The translations under genes and the position numbers were made by a program. A DNA stretch of 64,000 nucleotides, taken from positions 186,001-250,000 of the forward strand of contig CAJTDK010000004.1 of NCBI GenBank assembly GCA_910575105.1, read 5' to 3'. Each line of letters starts with the position of its first letter. The first letter of the stretch is position 1. Below, piece by piece: positions 41,681 to 49,901 of this stretch. The notes under the pieces are model-generated. The model was not told the DNA's origin. It did no database searches and was given only the letters and a program-made list of their open reading frames with translations. Source of the DNA: Lachnospiraceae bacterium. GTDB taxonomy: Bacteria > Bacillota > Clostridia > Lachnospirales > Lachnospiraceae.

Positions 41681-41886
41681 CACTGTATGTTCCTTTCTGC
41701 AGTCTTTATATTTGCATTTGTTCTGCACTGTTGTAACAGAGTATATCCTGCATCGCATAAAATTTCCATGACAGGATGAATTAAAAACATTGCAGGATGT
41801 CTTTAGTTATCGGCTGCGGGTATTGGGTAACTGTTCAGCCTGCGGCGTCATTGTTATGGTATCGGTTCAATCTGGTGATGTTTTCC

Positions 41887-41921
41887 TTGACAAATAGCTA
41901 TGTTGTGATACAATATAGCTA
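41887..41921 (+). promoter_or_regulatory. Promoter with a 27-bp interrupted palindrome
   Basis: TTGACA (41887-41892), 16-base spacer, TACAAT (41909-41914). Over it lies TAGCTAT (41895-41901)...ATAGCTA (41915-41921), with inner TTGT/ACAA halves; 22 of 27 positions are symmetric. The regulator that binds here is not encoded beside it. It reads towards the membrane protein at 42024. Confidence 0.6.
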
Positions 41922-42023
41922 AGAATATTGCAATGCAAGGTAGATGGAGGTTCTGCTGTCCGGCAGGGTATGGAAAGAGATAGAAAGTAAAATTGCGGAT
42001 TTCAGCAGAGAGGAGAATGGTCT

Positions 42024-42722
42024 ATGGGTATTTTCTACAACAATTATCAGAAACTGGTATCTGAAAATAATCAGGAACTGGCGAGGCTTTCGGAATCGAA
42101 CTGGGATATTTTAGGCAGGATGATGAAATACATGGAATCCTTCAGTATCTCTCGCTTTGAGCTGGAGGTGATCAAGAAGGATCTGATTGGTATGGCTGGG
42201 GAGGCACAGCTTGAGGAAAGTACTCTGCTGGACAGGATCGGCATGCCGGAGAAGGAGTTCTGCGACAGGCTGGTGGAAAACGCCGCGAAACGCAGCCCGC
42301 TGGAGCGGATGATTCCCATCATGCGCAATGTCCTGTTCCTCACATTTGGATTTTATACACTTGAATGGCTGATGGAGGGAATACCGGCTGATTTCGGTAT
42401 CACAAACCGGGTACTGCTTATCGCAGGCGTTCTTGCGGCTGTGGATCTGTTTGACATCCGTGCGAGGGGGCGGATCGTCTATCTGGGCAAGTGGAAGAGA
42501 GGACTTTTCAAGGGGATCATTATGCTGGCGTGGGTTGTGATGCTTAATACATGTATTATGTCGGGTCCAACCAGCCTTTTTCCGGGGATTATTCCGGAAA
42601 ACTTTCTGATTATGGGAAAGGGAATAGCGGTATTTGCAGTCCTTCTTATCCTCGCGCTGGCGCTGTTTTTCTGGAATAATTATTTCTGGGACAGATGCTC
42701 ACGGAGATACCAGTGGGAGTAG
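42024..42722 (+). CDS. Uncharacterised membrane protein with helical N-terminal domain
   Basis: I do not recognise the family with confidence. 232 residues: a soluble helical part (1-95, NNYQKLVSENNQELARLSESNWDILGRMMKYMESFSISRFELEVIKKDLIGM) of the kind found in DUF1048/DUF1700 proteins that go with PadR regulators, then about four membrane helices (102-120, 128-145, 163-182, 195-222). GAGAGGAG before the ATG. No PadR gene is beside it, but the promoter has a large palindrome, so the control gene may be elsewhere. Confidence 0.6.
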   Translation: MGIFYNNYQKLVSENNQELARLSESNWDILGRMMKYMESFSISRFELEVIKKDLIGMAGEAQLEESTLLDRIGMPEKEFCDRLVENAAKRSPLERMIPIMRNVLFLTFGFYTLEWLMEGIPADFGITNRVLLIAGVLAAVDLFDIRARGRIVYLGKWKRGLFKGIIMLAWVVMLNTCIMSGPTSLFPGIIPENFLIMGKGIAVFAVLLILALALFFWNNYFWDRCSRRYQWE

Positions 42723-42807
42723 GTGCTGGCGCCTGTTCTGGGATTTTCTTCTTGCGGCAAAGTTTGTGAGAAAATGTAATCGAAAAATTATTTATGTAAA
42801 AAAAGGG

Positions 42808-42836
42808 TTGACATAAAGAACGTTTGTTTGTATAAT
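42808..42836 (+). promoter_or_regulatory. Consensus promoter of the radical-SAM / helicase cassette
   Basis: Perfect TTGACA (42808-42813), 17-base spacer, perfect TATAAT (42831-42836). One LexA-type box lies in the spacer and a second just downstream, so a strong promoter is held by a repressor. Confidence 0.85.
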
Positions 42837-42858
42837 TGGATTATCGAACGAACGTTCT
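42817..42858. promoter_or_regulatory. Two LexA (SOS) boxes
   Basis: AGAACGTTTGTTTG (42817-42830) and CGAACGAACGTTCT (42845-42858). Both follow the Gram-positive LexA/DinR pattern CGAACRNRYGTTYG closely; the second contains a perfect GAAC-N4-GTTC. Start-to-start distance is 28 bases. One covers the promoter spacer, the other the transcript start region. Confidence 0.75.
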
Positions 42859-42987
42859 TTTGCGTTGACTAAAAGGAAAAACTAAATTCTATTTCTTTTG
42901 CGCCGCAGGAGCAGTGCGGTCAGGATGAGGATGGGAGTCCATCCGGGATTAGGACATGTTGGATCAGGTGTTTTGCGGAGGTGTGTG

Positions 42988-44313
42988 ATGAGGATTCAGG
43001 AAGAGATGTCTATATATGATAAACTGAATATTCTGACGGATGCGGCAAAGTATGATGTGGCGTGTACTTCCAGCGGTGTTTCCAGAAAGAACGATGGGAC
43101 TGGCATAGGCAACTGCAAGCTTTCCGGAATATGCCACAGCTTTTCGGCGGACGGCAGATGTATCTCGCTGTTAAAGATATTGTTCACGAATGAGTGCATT
43201 TATGACTGTAAATACTGCATCAACCGGCGGAGCAATGATGTGGTGCGTACCTCTTTTACTCCGGACGAGATCTGCACGCTGATGATGGAGTTTTACCGGA
43301 GGAATTATATTGAAGGACTGTTTTTGAGCTCCGGGGTGCTGAAAAGTCCGGATTATACGATGGAGCTGATCTATGCGGCCTTGTACAGATTAAGGACGAG
43401 ATACAATTTTCAAGGCTATATCCATGTGAAGGCCATCCCGGGAGCCAGCCAGGAGCTGATCCAGAGAGTGGGCTTTCTTACGGACCGGATGAGTGTCAAT
43501 CTGGAGCTTCCTACGGCGGAGAGCTTAAAGCTTCTTGCGCCCCATAAGACGAGGAAGAACATTCTGGCTCCTATGCGCCTTGTGCAGAACCGTATGGCGG
43601 AGAATAAGCAGGAGATCGTTGCTTACCGCAATTCTCCGAGATTTGTCCCGGCGGGGCAGAGCACCCAGATGATCATCGGAGCGACGCCGGAGACGGATTA
43701 TCAGATCATGCAGGTTACGGAATCCCTGTATCGGAAGTTTGAGTTAAAGAGAGTGTTTTACTCTGCATTTGTCCATGTGAATGAGGATTCGAACCTTCCG
43801 GCAAGGACGGATGGGGGACCGCCGCTTTTAAGGGAACACCGGCTCTATCAGGCGGACTGGCTGCTTCGGTATTATCATTTTCAGGCGGATGAGCTGTTGT
43901 CGGAGGAGAACCCGAATTTTAACGTGCTGTTCGACCCGAAGTGTAATTGGGCATTGAAGCACCTGGAGGAGTTCCCGGTGGAAGTGAACCGGGCGGATTA
44001 CAAAAAGCTTCTGCGTGTTCCGGGGATCGGCTACAAGTCGGCGGGGAGGATCGTCAGGGCAAGACGGCTTGGGAATCTGGATTTTCCGGATCTGAAAAAG
44101 ATCGGGGTAGTATTGAAGCGCGCCCTGTATTTTATTACCTGCAGCGGAAGGATGATGTACCCGACGAAGATCGAGGAGGATTACATCACCAGGAATCTTC
44201 TGAATGCCGGTGAGAAGCTTCCGCAGGAGGTGGTGAATATGGGCTACAGGCAGTTGTCTTTGTTCGATGACGTAAGGTTTGACGCGGATAAGGTGATGCA
44301 GGTTAAGGGATAA
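42988..44313 (+). CDS. Putative DNA modification/repair radical SAM protein (TIGR03916 type)
   Basis: A 441-residue radical-SAM enzyme. The 4Fe-4S motif is CX3CX2C: Cys70, Cys74, Cys77 (NECIYDCKYCINRRSND). The next conserved parts are GLFLSSGVLKSPDYTMELIY and GYIHVKAIPGA; near residues 340-360 lies a helix-hairpin-helix (LLRVPGIGYKSAGRIVRAR), a non-specific DNA-binding motif. The family is known as rSAM_link_UDG; its reaction is not known. Start at 42988 with GGAGG; a longer frame at 42898 has no such site. It is the first gene of an SOS-boxed set with the TIGR03915 gene and a nuclease-helicase. Confidence 0.88.
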   Translation: MRIQEEMSIYDKLNILTDAAKYDVACTSSGVSRKNDGTGIGNCKLSGICHSFSADGRCISLLKILFTNECIYDCKYCINRRSNDVVRTSFTPDEICTLMMEFYRRNYIEGLFLSSGVLKSPDYTMELIYAALYRLRTRYNFQGYIHVKAIPGASQELIQRVGFLTDRMSVNLELPTAESLKLLAPHKTRKNILAPMRLVQNRMAENKQEIVAYRNSPRFVPAGQSTQMIIGATPETDYQIMQVTESLYRKFELKRVFYSAFVHVNEDSNLPARTDGGPPLLREHRLYQADWLLRYYHFQADELLSEENPNFNVLFDPKCNWALKHLEEFPVEVNRADYKKLLRVPGIGYKSAGRIVRARRLGNLDFPDLKKIGVVLKRALYFITCSGRMMYPTKIEEDYITRNLLNAGEKLPQEVVNMGYRQLSLFDDVRFDADKVMQVKG

Positions 44314-44381
44314 GAAGTATTGCGGGAGGATATGGTAGAATTTGCCATCGCATTAAGGTCAGGGGAGCGTGTTGAAGTGGT

Positions 44382-45164
44382 ATGAAAACGGTTTATGTAT
44401 GTACGGATTCGGTGACCGGTATATTTTCTGCCGTCCATGATGCGTGGAAGGCGCAGAAGACGGAGGAAGAGTGCGGGATTGCCCTGCGGGGCTTTATGGA
44501 GCAGCAGTTGTTCTGCGATTATGTCGAGGTGGAGGAGACGGAAGGGAAAGCGGCTGCCGTAGAGAACATGATACGCAAGCATATGGGACTTCTGGCTTAT
44601 CATGATCTCTATCAGGCTGCGTTGGCGGCGGACGCAGAAAAAGGGGACGCGGTTCTTGGTACGATGCTTGCGGCGAAGAAGTTAAAGGACAGCAAAAAGA
44701 TTATGGAGCACTTAAGCCATCCAAAGGTGGAGAAGGTGTTTGAACTGAGCCGGAGAGTCGGCAATGAGGCCCACTTTCATGTCGAGTTTATCCGGTTCAG
44801 GGAGCTTGAGAGCGGTATTTTGTATGCGCCGGTCACGCCGAAATGTCAGGTGCTTACCTGTATAGCACCTCATTTTGCAGATCGTTTTCCTCTGGAGAAC
44901 TGGATGATCCATGATAAGACTCACCGTGCTTTTGCCGTACACGAGGCGAGAAAAAAGTGGGTGCTTGTGCAGGAGGCTTACGGCGAGGCGCAAAAAGAGG
45001 AGTACGAGGAGCAGTTTAAGCGGATGTCGGAGAAAGAGATGGAATATGAGACGCTCTTTAAGAGCTTTTGCGAAACGATTGCCATTAAGGAAAGGGAGAA
45101 TCCGGTATGCCAGAGAGGGCATCTCCCGCTCTGGTACCGTCCGAACATGGTAGAGTTCTCGTAG
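44382..45164 (+). CDS. TIGR03915/DUF4130-type DNA repair protein
   Basis: A 260-residue protein with the pattern of the family that is found next to, or fused to, uracil-DNA glycosylase and paired with TIGR03916 radical-SAM enzymes: VYVCTDSVTGIFSAVHDAW at the start, HFHVEFIRFRELESGILYAPVTPKCQVLTCIAPHFADRFPLENWMIHDKTHRAFAVHE in the middle and PLWYRPNMVEF at the end. No membrane segment or known catalytic motif. It starts 68 bases after the radical-SAM gene and must share its promoter. The exact role in repair is not known; damage-induced action is inferred from the LexA boxes. Confidence 0.86.
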   Translation: MKTVYVCTDSVTGIFSAVHDAWKAQKTEEECGIALRGFMEQQLFCDYVEVEETEGKAAAVENMIRKHMGLLAYHDLYQAALAADAEKGDAVLGTMLAAKKLKDSKKIMEHLSHPKVEKVFELSRRVGNEAHFHVEFIRFRELESGILYAPVTPKCQVLTCIAPHFADRFPLENWMIHDKTHRAFAVHEARKKWVLVQEAYGEAQKEEYEEQFKRMSEKEMEYETLFKSFCETIAIKERENPVCQRGHLPLWYRPNMVEFS

Positions 45165-45253
45165 GAAATCTTTTGCGCTGCTTTCATCATGTTCTCACGC
45201 AAGGAGCTGTGTATGGATATTGACAGACGGCCGTATTATCTTTATCATATTTG

Positions 45254-47809
45254 ATGAATAAAGAATTGGACTTGCAGCAGCCGGTACAGGCAGGAAAGGC
45301 GGCAGCCGGGAGGCAGCGCGAGTCAGAGAAAGATGCAGGTATAATAGAGATGGAACAGCCTCTTGTAAAGATTTCCGTGCGTAATCTCGTGGAGTTTATT
45401 ATGCGCGGCGGAGATATTGATAACCGTATGGCAGGTGCAGATAAGGATACGATGCTTCTCGGAGGGAAGATGCACCGCAAGATCCAGAAGCGGATGGGCG
45501 CAGATTATCATGCGGAGGTGGCGCTGAAATACGAGCTGCAGTGCAAAGGCTTTATGCTTATCATTGAGGGCAGGGCAGACGGAGTTATAGAGACGCCGGA
45601 TGGGATCGTGATTGATGAGATCAAGGGTATCCTTAAGGAGCTGGATACGGTAAAGGAGCCTGTCCCTGTGCATCTTGCCCAAGCAAAGTGCTATGCCTTT
45701 ATCTATGCCGGGCAGCACCGTAAAGAGCAGATCGGTGTACAGATGACCTACTGCCATATGGAGACGGAGGACATCAGGCGGTTTCAGTATGTGTATGGAT
45801 TTGAGGAGCTTTCGGCCTGGTTTTTCGAGCTTGCCGGGAAATATGAAAAATGGGCGAGATATCAGATCCTATGGAAGGAAAAGCGGGATGCATCCATCAA
45901 AGCGTTGGAGTTCCCTTTTGGATACCGGGAAGGGCAGAGAGATCTGGTAGCTTCCGTATACAGGACGATTCTGCGCAGGAAGAAGCTCTTTATCCAGGCG
46001 CCGACCGGAGTGGGGAAGACGATGTCTGCCGTATTCCCTGCAGTGAAGGCAGTGGGGGAAGGGCTGGGAGATAAGATCTTTTACCTGACTGCCAAGACGA
46101 TCACGCGGACAGTTGCCTGGCAGGCTTTTGATATCTTAAAGGGGCAGGCGCTGCGGATGAAGATTCTTGTGCTGACTGCCAAGGATAAGATCTGCTTTTG
46201 CGAAGAGACCAACTGCAATCCGGATGGATGTCTCTATGCAAGAGGACATTATGACAGGGTGAATGATGCGGTTTATGAGCTTCTTACCACATCGGATGAG
46301 ATGAGCCGGGAGATTATCGAGGAGCAGGCAAAGAAGTGGCAGGTATGCCCTTATGAGATGAGCCTGGATGTCTCCAACTGGATCGACGCGGTTATCTGTG
46401 ACTATAATTATGTGTTTGATCCGCAGGCCCATCTTCGGAGATTTTTCGGGGAAGGGAATCAGGGGGAATATCTGTTTTTGATCGACGAGGCGCACAACCT
46501 GGTAGAGCGCGGGAGAGAGATGTACAGCGCCAGTATTTATAAAGAGGATTTCCTGAGGATAAAAAAGAGGGTAACAGGAAGGGATGTGAAGCTTACCAAA
46601 AGGCTTGACAACTGTAACCGCCAGCTTCTTGCCATGAAGCGTGAATGCGAGGATTACCGGATTTTGGACAGTGTATCCCATCTGTATCTGAAGCTGATGA
46701 ATCTGATGACAGAGCTGGAGCGGTTCCTGGAAGAGGAGAGAAAGAAGAAAAGCCCTGATGAAGAGATGAGAAAGGAAGTGCTGGATTTTTATTTTGATGT
46801 CCGCAGTTTTTTAAATATTCATGATAAACTGGATGAGAATTATATACTTTATTCGGAGATGGAGGGCAGCGGAAGGTTCAAGGTCCGTCTGTTCTGTGTG
46901 AATCCGTCAAAGAATCTGCAGGAATATCTGGATAAAGGGAACAGTACGGTATATTTTTCGGCCACCCTGCTTCCTATCCATTATTATAAGAAGCTGTTGA
47001 GCGCATCAAAGGATGACTATGCAGTCTATGCCGAGTCTCCCTTTAACACCAGAAAACGCCTTCTGCTTTTGGGGACGGATGTGAGTACGAAGTATTCGAG
47101 GCGCGGGGAGGAGGTGTACCGCAGATATGCGGAGTATCTTTTGGAAACGGCAGGTGCAAGGGCCGGGAATTATATCGCCTTCTTCCCTTCTTACAGATTT
47201 ATGGAGGAGGTATACGAGGCGTTTTTGGAGCTTTTGGATGCCGGGACGTCCGGGATATCCGGATCGGGAGATGCAGAGGAGGCGGCGGGCAGGGAAAAAG
47301 CGTGTGAAAGGCAGGATGGGAAGCTGGGGGTCTCTGTCGATTACGTCATGCAGTCCCAGTATATGACAGAGGAGGCTAGGGAGATTTTCCTTGAGAACTT
47401 CGAAGAGACAAGGGAGAACAGCCTGATGGGCTTCTGTGTGATGGGAGGGATATTTTCCGAGGGGATTGACCTGACCCAGGACAGGCTGATCGGCGCGGTG
47501 ATCATAGGGACGGGTCTTCCGCAGGTATGCAGGGAGCGGGAGCTTTTGAAGGCTTATTTTGATGGTCAGGGGCTTAGGGGATTTGATTATGCCTATCTTT
47601 ATCCGGGGATGAACAAGGTTCTGCAGTCGGCAGGAAGGGTTATCCGTACAGATGAGGACAGAGGAGTTATCCTGCTTCTTGACGAAAGGTTCAGGGACAG
47701 CAGGTGCAAAGAGGTGTTCCCCAGAGAATGGAAGGATGTAAAGCTGTGCCAGGTCAAGACTGCGGCAGGGCTGATCAGGGATTTCTGGGAGAAGGAAAGC
47801 AAAGAATGA
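45254..47809 (+). CDS. XPD/DinG-type Fe-S helicase with N-terminal PD-(D/E)XK nuclease-like domain
   Basis: An 851-residue protein. Residues about 35-200 look like a Cas4/PD-(D/E)XK nuclease domain (GRADGVIETPDGIVIDEIKG, with D...E-x-K). From about 215 it is a superfamily 2 Rad3/DinG helicase: Walker A FIQAPTGVGKTMSAVFP, FeS-type cysteines at about 314-327 and 365 (CFCEETNCNPDGC, QVCPYE), DEAH box LFLIDEAHNLVERG, and C-terminal motifs VYFSATLLP, GIDLTQDRL and QSAGRVIRTDEDRG. The start is uncertain: ATG 45254 has no ribosome site and ATG 45350 is an alternative. It follows the TIGR03915 gene by 89 bases, within the SOS cassette. Confidence 0.88.
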   Translation: MNKELDLQQPVQAGKAAAGRQRESEKDAGIIEMEQPLVKISVRNLVEFIMRGGDIDNRMAGADKDTMLLGGKMHRKIQKRMGADYHAEVALKYELQCKGFMLIIEGRADGVIETPDGIVIDEIKGILKELDTVKEPVPVHLAQAKCYAFIYAGQHRKEQIGVQMTYCHMETEDIRRFQYVYGFEELSAWFFELAGKYEKWARYQILWKEKRDASIKALEFPFGYREGQRDLVASVYRTILRRKKLFIQAPTGVGKTMSAVFPAVKAVGEGLGDKIFYLTAKTITRTVAWQAFDILKGQALRMKILVLTAKDKICFCEETNCNPDGCLYARGHYDRVNDAVYELLTTSDEMSREIIEEQAKKWQVCPYEMSLDVSNWIDAVICDYNYVFDPQAHLRRFFGEGNQGEYLFLIDEAHNLVERGREMYSASIYKEDFLRIKKRVTGRDVKLTKRLDNCNRQLLAMKRECEDYRILDSVSHLYLKLMNLMTELERFLEEERKKKSPDEEMRKEVLDFYFDVRSFLNIHDKLDENYILYSEMEGSGRFKVRLFCVNPSKNLQEYLDKGNSTVYFSATLLPIHYYKKLLSASKDDYAVYAESPFNTRKRLLLLGTDVSTKYSRRGEEVYRRYAEYLLETAGARAGNYIAFFPSYRFMEEVYEAFLELLDAGTSGISGSGDAEEAAGREKACERQDGKLGVSVDYVMQSQYMTEEAREIFLENFEETRENSLMGFCVMGGIFSEGIDLTQDRLIGAVIIGTGLPQVCRERELLKAYFDGQGLRGFDYAYLYPGMNKVLQSAGRVIRTDEDRGVILLLDERFRDSRCKEVFPREWKDVKLCQVKTAAGLIRDFWEKESKE

Positions 47810-47843
47810 TCAGAATATGTGTGGGGATGGGCAAAAGTCTGAT

Positions 47844-47888
47844 CAGGAGGTGTGTGCGCTGACCATAGACCAGCGCATACACCTCCTG
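47844..47888. terminator. Long inverted repeat after the helicase
   Basis: CAGGAGGTGTGTGCGCTG (47844-47861) pairs with CAGCGCATACACCTCCTG (47871-47888) with one G-U pair; loop of nine. It ends the SOS cassette and faces the convergent ABC permease. No T tract. Confidence 0.6.
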
Positions 47889-47952
47889 ACCGCTCCATGA
47901 CTCCATGACCCGTATCATGCAGAAGTTGATTTAGAATTGCTTTCGTATCATC

Positions 47953-48783
47953 TTAGATCAGATTGATCTTTTTGTTCATAATATAGTGTGTCATGATATA
48001 CAGGATAACAGAGGTTCCGGCCATCAGTATGGTGCTGGTCTTCATCACATCTATCATATAGGCGATAAAGTTAAAGTTATCCCCCTCTGATCCGGCAGTT
48101 ATTATCAGACGTGTCTCATTTCCGAAGAGAGCCATGACTACAAGGGACAGAACGGACAGTACGGTAGAGATGGCAAAGTAGGATACCACTGCTCCGAGCA
48201 CACGGTGGCTGGAAAAGAGCTGGCCGAGGGCGACGGAGGCATAGATCATGACTATGCTTGAAATTGAGCCCAGGCAGCTGAATAAGAACAGTACGGTAAG
48301 CGCGGAGGAAAAGGACAGGCCGGCATATTCTCCGGTAGCCCCGAATTCTCTTAATATCTCTGCTTTATGAGATGTCACTGCTGACTGGATATAGGGCGTA
48401 CATAGTACGAGGTAAGTGCACAGGTAGATGACAGACATATTGATAACGGCCCAGATGCTTCCGGCGATCGTTTTCGACAGCAGATGTGTGGCGTTGGTGA
48501 CCGGAAGTGTCCTGGTAAGGTATCCTTCGTCGGTAAACATATTCTTATAAAAGCGGATGCCTGCGAGCAGGTATGTTCCTGTGCTGAGGGCAGTGATGGT
48601 TGTAAAAAACAGGATAAAGAAAAGTATAAATATAAAGTCTACCTGCTTGCTTGAGGACTGCGGGTTGATCCTGCCGGTGACGAACAGTCTCATCAGTATG
48701 GATGCCAGCAGTGCGAAAATGTGCAGGAAAGGCAGAAAGTGGTTTAATGATTTCATGTCATATCTGATCAGTTTCTTTAACAT
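47953..48783 (-). CDS. ABC-2 type transporter permease
   Basis: A 276-residue membrane protein with about six helices, the first at residues 17-36 (FLPFLHIFALLASILMRLF). The pattern of the loop LLAGIRFYKNMFTDEGYLTRTLPVTNATHLLSKTIAG is typical of ABC-2 permeases paired with YtrA-type regulators. It is the third gene of the GntR-ATPase-permease set read on the minus strand and its ATG overlaps the ATPase stop. Cargo unknown. Confidence 0.83.
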   Translation of the reverse strand: MLKKLIRYDMKSLNHFLPFLHIFALLASILMRLFVTGRINPQSSSKQVDFIFILFFILFFTTITALSTGTYLLAGIRFYKNMFTDEGYLTRTLPVTNATHLLSKTIAGSIWAVINMSVIYLCTYLVLCTPYIQSAVTSHKAEILREFGATGEYAGLSFSSALTVLFLFSCLGSISSIVMIYASVALGQLFSSHRVLGAVVSYFAISTVLSVLSLVVMALFGNETRLIITAGSEGDNFNFIAYMIDVMKTSTILMAGTSVILYIMTHYIMNKKINLI

Positions 48784-49478
48784 CTGAATACCTCCCTGAA
48801 CAGGGTGTCTACAGATTTGCCCTGTTCTGTACGAATTTCATCTACGGCTGCATTTAAGACTAGCTGTCCCTGTTTGATAAAAAGTACCCGGTCCAGGATA
48901 TTCTCTATATCATGGATGAGATGAGTAGAGATGAGAATTGCAGCATCTTCATTGTAATTGTTTAAAATGGTGCTTAAGATGTAGTCTCTCGATGCCGGGT
49001 CGACGCCGCCGATCGGCTCATCCAGCACATAAAGGCCGGCGTCCCGGCTCATGACGAGGATGAGCTGTACTTTTTCCTTCGTACCTTTAGAGAGAGTTTT
49101 TAAGCGTGCGTTCGTATCGATCTGCAGATCATCTAACATCCGGTATGCGCGTTCAGAAGAAAAATTATCATAAAAATCGGAAAAATAAGTGATGATCTCT
49201 TTTACCCTCATAGTTTCGTCAAGATATGTCCGTTCCGGCAGATAAGAGACGATTTTTTTTGTCTCAACCCCCGGCGCCATGCCGTTTATGCGGATCTCTC
49301 CGCTTGTGGGGACAAGCACATCGTTGATCAGCTTGATAAATGTGGTCTTTCCGCTTCCGTTAGGACCTAAAAGGCCGATGATCTGACCGCGTTCAAGAGA
49401 GAGATTTAAGTTGTTCAGTGCGCTGTAAATCTTATTGTAACTTTTGGTGAGACCGTAACATTCTAAGATTGGATTCAT
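48777..49478 (-). CDS. ABC transporter ATP-binding protein
   Basis: A 233-residue ATPase: Walker A GLLGPNGSGKTTFIKLI (about residues 37-53), signature LSKGTKEKVQLILVMSRD, Walker B LYVLDEPIGGVDPASRD and H-loop ISTHLIHD. Note the signature begins LSKGT instead of LSGGQ, as is common in this clade. The start at 49478 follows TAAGGAGG; the frame beginning at 49547 lies inside the GntR gene. Functions with the permease downstream; probably controlled by the GntR protein upstream. Confidence 0.9.
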   Translation of the reverse strand: MNPILECYGLTKSYNKIYSALNNLNLSLERGQIIGLLGPNGSGKTTFIKLINDVLVPTSGEIRINGMAPGVETKKIVSYLPERTYLDETMRVKEIITYFSDFYDNFSSERAYRMLDDLQIDTNARLKTLSKGTKEKVQLILVMSRDAGLYVLDEPIGGVDPASRDYILSTILNNYNEDAAILISTHLIHDIENILDRVLFIKQGQLVLNAAVDEIRTEQGKSVDTLFREVFRC

Positions 49479-49479
49479 A

Positions 49480-49848
49480 TTATTCTGCCTCCTTAAGCTG
49501 TTCCTGTGTGAGAGTAAGGATCTCCTCCCTTGAGAAACCAAGTTCATCCATCTTTTCTAAAAAGGCGTGGATATGTTCCTGTGCGAGTTCATTTTTTAGT
49601 TGATTTAGCATCCCTTCATCCTCCGTAATCAGCCGTCCGCTGGTGCGCTTTGCATAGACGATGCCGCTGCGTTCCAGCTCAGATAAGGCCTTCTGCATTG
49701 TGTTGGGGTTAACCGCGGCTTCAAGGGCAAGCTCCCTCACGGACGGCAGTTTGTCTCCGGGGCGGTAAACGCCAGAAACGATGTCTAATTGTATTCTCTC
49801 CATTAGCTGGAGATAGATCGGCCTGTTATTATCCAGATCCCATGGCAT
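49480..49848 (-). CDS. GntR-family regulator, YtrA subfamily
   Basis: A 122-residue regulator with a GntR winged helix (RPIYLQLMERIQLDIVSGVYRPGDKLPSVRELALEAAVNPNTMQKALSELERSGIVYAKRTSGRLI) and a short C-terminal tail of about 45 residues. The start is the ATG at 49848, preceded by GAGAGG; the GTG at 49857 overlaps that site. Two copies of an operator-like repeat (ATTGTA or ACTGTA, 12 bases, TACAAT) lie at 49902-49925 and 50034-50057 upstream. It is not a close sequence match to the similar regulator at 11138, so the two operons are independent. Confidence 0.88.
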   Translation of the reverse strand: MPWDLDNNRPIYLQLMERIQLDIVSGVYRPGDKLPSVRELALEAAVNPNTMQKALSELERSGIVYAKRTSGRLITEDEGMLNQLKNELAQEHIHAFLEKMDELGFSREEILTLTQEQLKEAE

Positions 49849-49901
49849 ATAGTTCACCTCTCTTAATTGTGCAGGCTGCTGTGCATCGAGCAGTGTTCCT
49901 G

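Follow-up and report, generated by a model that had tools for sequence, protein, structure and literature searches.

The radical S-adenosylmethionine (SAM) family TIGR03916, which we take to be the same as COG4277, is paired with TIGR03915, and the pair is linked to uracil-DNA glycosylase (UDG). In the COG1573-COG4277 operon, the COG4277 gene stands in a LexA-controlled unit of two genes, and the available part of the source reports SOS control of this operon in Bacteroidetes, Verrucomicrobia and Alphaproteobacteria (PMC8565304). The LexA regulon table of Streptomyces venezuelae likewise includes a radical SAM gene that has a LexA site (vnz_31145; PMC9380542, as far as its accessible text goes), the likeness being one of description only. 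SplB, the spore photoproduct lyase (SPL), provides a model of radical SAM chemistry in DNA repair. The window analysed here, a stretch of 64,000 nucleotides from a Lachnospiraceae bacterium, carries at 42808-47809 a promoter with two LexA boxes, followed by open reading frames (ORFs) for a radical SAM protein, a TIGR03915/DUF4130 protein and an XPD/DinG-like helicase. We hypothesise that the first two genes form a LexA-repressed operon, which would encode an SOS-induced DNA-repair enzyme tethered to the sliding clamp, and that the helicase is a neighbour; we give this reading a rough probability of 0.6.

The two proteins of the pair score above the curated cut-offs of their families, and the order and strand of their genes are as in relatives. 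The window differs from the UDG-linked pair in that UdgX is neither fused nor adjacent. It differs also from the COG1573-COG4277 operon, where the partner is a UDG according to the portion of the source available (PMC8565304); here it is DUF4130 alone, and the boxes are of the DinR type. Among the matches listed for the radical SAM gene, the top named records are a Dorea metagenome-assembled genome (88%) and Faecalicatena contorta (84%), both presumably Lachnospiraceae.

Several sets of relatives were used. In a family sample of 120 genomes, TIGR03916 was above its cut-off in 67, counting the genome containing the window; 60 loci were taken from the other 66, six being omitted. A second set comprised 80 named loci from another collection. 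Together with the window these make 141 loci, or 138 distinct ones once duplicates are merged, and 136 radical SAM ORFs were analysed from the 141, the remaining five loci having no ORF in the cluster. There were also 16 further loci, consisting of 15 plasmid or phage records (two of them from Bacillota) and one virus-catalogued contig. Residue conservation was read from an alignment of 50 radical SAM proteins (A5) and from a wider set of 16, which comprised the window and 15 relatives after one of two Acinetobacter loci had been dropped.

The promoter of the pair is the sole site with a 12/12 match listed across 41700-48900. Because one LexA box lies in its spacer and the other directly after the -10 hexamer, bound LexA should block the polymerase. 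A loose count of LexA boxes in the window alone (at most two mismatches) is not above chance, with 14 seen and 11.5 expected, and the argument for SOS control therefore rests on the position and conservation of the boxes. Exact matches to CRAACRNRYGTTYK, a pattern relaxed after sight of these sites and listed with exact matches first, number six distinct sites among the matches listed for the 4.24-Mb genome; two are at the pair promoter and one is about 100 bp upstream of lexA.

The boxes are conserved in relatives. In 54 of the 60 family loci a LexA box falls in the 600 bp ahead of the matched start, and in 58 of the 80 named loci there is one between -300 and +30. Across the 138 distinct loci, 111 have one between -300 and +10, compared with 26 of 2601 random windows (1.0%) from the same loci, the site densities being 4.04 and 0.029 per kb respectively. 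Among the 16 further loci there are boxes of other types, GAACN7GAAC and CTGTN8ACAG, which we take to be those of LexA in alpha- and in beta- and gammaproteobacteria. GAACN7GAAC was found near the start in nine of these loci (eight alphaproteobacterial plasmids and one virus-catalogued contig) at a distance of 9-39 bp, and once 108 bp. Caballeronia, the sole betaproteobacterium among them, has a CTGTN8ACAG box, CTGTATAAACATACAG, and Acetoanaerobium has a DinR-like AAACN4GTTC site. On the basis of a box at the promoter that is conserved in relatives, the pair is predicted to be under LexA control, with LexA binding and induction expected. Since SOS control has already been reported for the COG1573-COG4277 operon elsewhere, these findings extend the known SOS work to Clostridia.

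The second feature that carries our reading is at the other end of the radical SAM protein. The C-terminal tail (...GYRQLSLFDDVRF...) contains the sequence QLSLFD. According to the accessible part of PMC3716654, the consensus for binding the beta sliding clamp (DnaN) is QL[S/D]LF, and a C-terminal placement is the more usual one. A motif of this type is shared with the clamp clients UmuC (QLNLF) and Pol II (QLGLF). In A5 the motif is well kept (Q422 in all 50 proteins, L423 in 38, S424 in 47, L425 in 39 and F426 in 48) within variable flanks, and the Q and L are present in 16/16 of the wider set. The pattern Q[LM][SD][LM]F occurs in the last 60 residues of 108 of the 136 radical SAM ORFs, and a looser form in 132, while shuffled tails gave a mean of 0.06 matches and a maximum of 1. 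It was found in none of 131 DUF4130 ORFs and none of 45 helicase ORFs. Among 1468 other neighbouring ORFs it was absent from the last 60 residues and occurred anywhere in only two; one of these (L121, with the motif N-terminal) presumably resembles RarA, a replication-linked protein. The radical SAM protein is thus a predicted clamp client, with a QL[S/D]LF-type motif in an otherwise variable tail. To our knowledge, no known beta-clamp client is a radical SAM enzyme. Neither the clamp motif nor the conserved LexA boxes of Clostridia are stated for the pair in the available portions of the open-licence literature, and the joining of radical SAM with clamp-binding motifs was not found among the literature matches listed. 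As far as that literature shows, the motif and its conservation are new.

It could be argued that QLSLFD serves instead for docking to DUF4130 or to some other protein, given that it was identified by consensus only and that in many Clostridia a further variable stretch follows it. The tails of the 16 further loci read QLALF, QLSLL, QLSLF, QLSIF, QLALI, QLQLL, QLEMF, QLELF and QLSLW, the last being that of Gemmatirosa, which would also suit a docking role. We consider this explanation unlikely. The window sequence fits QL[S/D]LF exactly, the longer forms QLSLGF and QLILEF occur in Acinetobacter and Phocaeicola, and the motif forms the very C-terminus in several Proteobacteria, which is the pattern of a clamp client.

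The clamp motif bears also on the view, given in a figure legend of PMC3765255 (seen in part), that this is a 'predicted mutagenesis-related enzyme' (Aravind and colleagues), so that the pair would make or tolerate mutations, or modify thymine, rather than repair DNA. Several E. coli DNA polymerases, UmuC among them, do have similar clamp motifs according to the accessible text of PMC3716654. However, no polymerase was evident among the 40 commonest neighbour clusters, which are unannotated and were judged by their opening residues, and the helix-hairpin-helix (HhH) motif of the radical SAM protein and the fusion to UdgX described below would fit lesion handling better. This alternative seems improbable to us.

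Table 1. Positions of the features of the locus within the window.
Feature	Position	Strand	Remarks
Sigma-70/A type promoter of the pair, TTGACA-17-TATAAT	42808..42836	+	12/12 match
LexA/DinR box 1, AGAACGTTTGTTTG, within promoter spacer	42817..42830	+	Identical box in same-genus L036
LexA/DinR box 2, CGAACGAACGTTCT, directly 3' of -10	42845..42858	+	Identical box in L036
Radical SAM protein, TIGR03916 (rSAM_link_UDG), 441 residues	42988..44313, ATG	+	697 bits, cut-off 343.5
Second cysteine set C26, C49 (H50), C58, candidate auxiliary metal site	43063..43161	+	Invariant 50/50 (A5)
CX3CX2C radical SAM cluster motif, C70/C74/C77	43195..43218	+	Invariant in A5 (50) and 16/16 of wider set
HhH DNA-binding motif	43975..44070	+	PF12836, residues 330-361, 27.4 bits, cut-off 27
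QLSLFD, predicted beta-sliding-clamp (DnaN) binding motif	44251..44268	+	Fits consensus QL[S/D]LF
TIGR03915/DUF4130 protein, constant partner, 260 residues	44382..45164	+	227.6 bits, cut-off 112.25
Promoter-like site before helicase, TTGACA-17-TATCAT	45220..45248	+	11/12; both hexamers and spacing kept in same-genus L036
EndoDinG: PD-(D/E)XK nuclease and XPD/DinG-type Fe-S helicase	45350..47809, ORF opens 45251	+	Start 45350 inferred from relatives

An earlier note on this DNA had described the promoter with its two LexA boxes, a radical SAM protein with CX3CX2C and HhH motifs, a TIGR03915-type protein and an XPD/DinG-like Fe-S helicase with an N-terminal nuclease motif. Profile scores, the complete nuclease motif and a full-length structural match agree with this description, and the position of the boxes is conserved far above background. 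To it we add the second promoter-like site and, within the radical SAM protein, the QLSLFD tail and a further three cysteines that are conserved.

The start of the radical SAM protein was set by alignment with relatives. In addition to the cysteines of the standard cluster, it has a further set (C26, C49, H50 and C58), which is present in 15/16 of the wider set, the window included. The Gemmatirosa protein (L253, a Gemmatirosa kalamazoonensis plasmid), a divergent TIGR03916 relative, has no extra cysteines. On our reading this set may bind an auxiliary cluster or zinc. The HhH region matches the ComEA-related structure 2duy (E 0.0013).

These features raise the possibility that the protein is an analogue of SPL for vegetative cells, directly reversing a thymine dimer or a similar pyrimidine lesion. 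The CX3CX2C motif implies the shared chemistry of the superfamily, and the DNA-binding motif and SOS control would suit such a role. However, the TIGR03916 protein gave no match to the SplB family at E 0.01, and a PDB search returned no SPL structure at E 1. It also differs from SplB in having the extra cysteine set, the HhH, the clamp motif and a partner protein; we know of no SPL with a DUF4130 partner or HhH, which further counts against the analogy. We give it a small chance only.

The partner protein is almost constant. In 60/60 family loci the gene next after the radical SAM gene, on its strand, is DUF4130, and DUF4130 also comes next in 78/80 named loci, in agreement with the statement of the earlier note that the two families travel together. 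Ten residues (L43, R138, F139, P153, F165, R168, I176, R238, P249 and E258) are kept in 13/13 proteins of a wider set that includes the window. There is no cysteine among them, and DUF4130 is thus probably not a second Fe-S enzyme. In one locus (L123:9478-10743) the DUF4130 ORF is 422 residues long, longer than in relatives, and may be a fusion or have a wrong start.

UdgX is a uracil-DNA binding protein that is reported to crosslink covalently. The annotation 'UdgX family uracil-DNA binding protein' is given to the partner in seven plasmid records from alpha- and betaproteobacteria, and the two partners scanned (L242 and L243) are both DUF4130-TIGR03914 fusions above cut-off. A pattern match shows GEQPG in eight partner ORFs, six of them with a KRRIH-like loop. 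The window protein matches TIGR03915 only, with no fused TIGR03914. The genome has three UDG-superfamily matches, one with the family-1 GQDPY motif and one family-4-like, with AEGPG and no KRRIH loop; no DUF4130-UdgX fusion was seen among the three. All are on other contigs, and it is therefore correct, as had been noted earlier, that no glycosylase gene stands beside the pair.

A number of observations weigh against our reading and should be set beside it. There is no LexA box within 300 bp in 27 of the 138 distinct Bacillota loci, and none of the types of box looked for occurs in five of the 16 further loci (two Acinetobacter, Gemmatirosa, Phocaeicola and Subdoligranulum). Two loci (L161 and L162) show no DUF4130 in the 1.2 and 2.7 kb downstream. 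Four of the 136 tails (L178, L190, L078 and L142) lack even the looser motif, and the QLSLW of Gemmatirosa departs from the consensus. The PDB search gave no convincing solved relative of DUF4130, and any role given to it is thus a guess; its sole match, a ribosomal protein at E 0.061, was taken as chance.

The third gene encodes a protein that belongs with EndoDinG. In the accessible part of the review that describes it (PMC11981726), EndoDinG has an N-terminal PD-(D/E)XK domain with H, D, E and K residues, a four-cysteine Fe-S domain and an XPD/DinG core, all of which are found here, and we see no decisive difference; the member assayed, cited there as unpublished data, is from Bdellovibrio. 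With numbering from 45254, the nuclease residues H74, D109, E122 and K124 and the Fe-S cysteines C314, C321, C326 and C365 are all invariant in 18/18 sequences. The protein matches the solved 'DNA 5'-3' helicase' 9kqh over its full length (E 1.7e-218). On this basis endonuclease activity is predicted.

Apart from DUF4130, no neighbour of the radical SAM gene is as conserved as the helicase, and it had been suggested that the radical enzyme, its helper and the nuclease-helicase constitute one damage-induced pathway working on the same lesion. The helicase is near the pair in 45 of 141 loci, and in 44 of these it is downstream on the same strand; these counts are a lower bound, because some loci end soon behind the pair. 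In four loci (L043, L056, L060 and L085) just 41-88 bp separate the DUF4130 stop from the conserved region at the helicase start. No terminator is predicted between the genes of the locus, and read-through into the helicase is therefore possible. There is also a weak co-occurrence among the family genomes, 63/67 of those with the pair having the helicase against 42/53 of those without (Fisher p 0.024).

The same figures show, however, that the helicase is matched in most genomes that have no pair. In total 105 of the 120 have a match to it with an E value no worse than 1e-40, a few of them having no N-terminal domain in the matched stretch. Nor is it always the third gene: it is downstream on the same strand in just 24 of the 60 family loci and 19 of the 80 named loci. 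Linkage was confined to loci whose radical SAM protein shares 60% identity or more with that of the window, and was seen in none of the 51 loci below that value; most of the named records with linkage carry the label Lachnospiraceae, but L125 is labelled Oscillospiraceae and L143 Bacillus. The helicase has a promoter-like site of its own (Table 1). Its own LexA box is present in 1/45 linked loci, and among 40 unlinked helicases, each sampled from a different one of the 105 genomes, two had a LexA-like box no more than 300 bp away, one of these boxes being weak; two of the sampled loci have less than 300 bp upstream. The conserved order in the 45 linked loci also takes in an HPr-like gene (21 loci) and an amylase-like gene (17), which have no evident relation, and shared ancestry may explain it. 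The amylase-like gene is near only 2/40 unlinked helicases, and so marks a conserved regional order rather than a companion of the helicase.

Taken together, this makes a single pathway of all three proteins doubtful. Of the damage-induced repair pathway proposed in the earlier note, a LexA-controlled unit of radical SAM and TIGR03915 proteins tied to DNA repair stands, and the helicase as third member has at best weak support. We regard the helicase as an independent gene that stands behind the pair in part of the group, a neighbour rather than a dedicated third partner, which may receive read-through; a functional link is possible given the many genera involved. To treat it as a largely independent EndoDinG gene weakens what would be a misleading lead.

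The HPr-like gene (about 80 residues) is directly upstream of EndoDinG in 19/40 unlinked loci, and lies between DUF4130 and the helicase in L032-L035, L038, L041, L045 and others. In the window, a GntR-type regulator, an ABC ATPase and a membrane protein at 47953-49857 on the minus strand point towards the helicase, and a similar regulator is found near the L048 helicase. An ORF that we take to resemble endonuclease IV (Nfo) lies about 5.3 kb past the radical SAM start in 7/141 loci (L038 and six others), mostly on the opposite strand.

The possibility of a defence system was considered and rejected: the radical SAM and DUF4130 proteins gave no PADLOC match at E 0.01, and the helicase matched type IV DinG models (best E 2.9e-115) and gave a weak match to Cas3, which is usual for its superfamily. 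As to phage carriage, the pair was matched in two virus-catalogue contigs and 10 phage-collection records, and contig L197 is among the 16 further loci. One record, the 240-kb 'Acinetobacter phage MD-2021a' (L244, CAKLQH020000003.1), looks like a bacterial chromosome, with the pair lying next to glyQ and glyS, and the longest fecal phage-collection record is an UNVERIFIED, unannotated scaffold. A helicase query of the viral collection found nothing.

Away from this locus, contig C1 of genome G000 (L094-L097) has two further LexA-type box pairs with a spacing of about 30 bp, at 130543-130587 and 142275-142321. One precedes an ORF that we take to be a DEAD/DEAH-type helicase and the other a small cluster with what looks like a tubulin/FtsZ-like (TubZ-like) ORF, and a LexA-like N-terminal domain is at C1:146858. 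The region looks like a damage-controlled mobile element.

How might the pair work? On DNA damage, cleaved LexA would leave the two boxes and the pair would be made. The standard [4Fe-4S]/SAM site should yield a 5'-deoxyadenosyl radical, which would start the chemistry. The enzyme would bind DnaN through its tail and DNA through its HhH, and DnaN would carry it to stalled forks or post-replicative gaps. DUF4130 would be a constant subunit that holds or processes the lesion, and the damaged nucleotide would be attacked by hydrogen abstraction, leading either to direct reversal or to conversion for later base excision. Because DUF4130 is fused to UdgX in Alphaproteobacteria, the complex there may also engage uracil or apurinic/apyrimidinic sites.

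A fuller version of this proposal, which we put at slightly under even odds, is that the radical SAM protein rides the sliding clamp as part of a damage-induced, replisome-coupled repair machine that deals with lesions where the template is single-stranded, at forks or gaps, with DUF4130 presenting the lesion, a dedicated second metal site, and UdgX as a covalent uracil trap in alpha- and betaproteobacteria. We know of no other radical SAM enzyme that rides the replication sliding clamp. The TIGR03916/TIGR03915 pair is known but uncharacterised, and the conserved clamp-type motif and lineage-specific LexA boxes allow a direct test of the place and time of its action, namely with DnaN, at replication and after damage. 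If true, the proposal would connect replication-coupled repair with the radical SAM repair of which spore photoproduct lyase is the known example.

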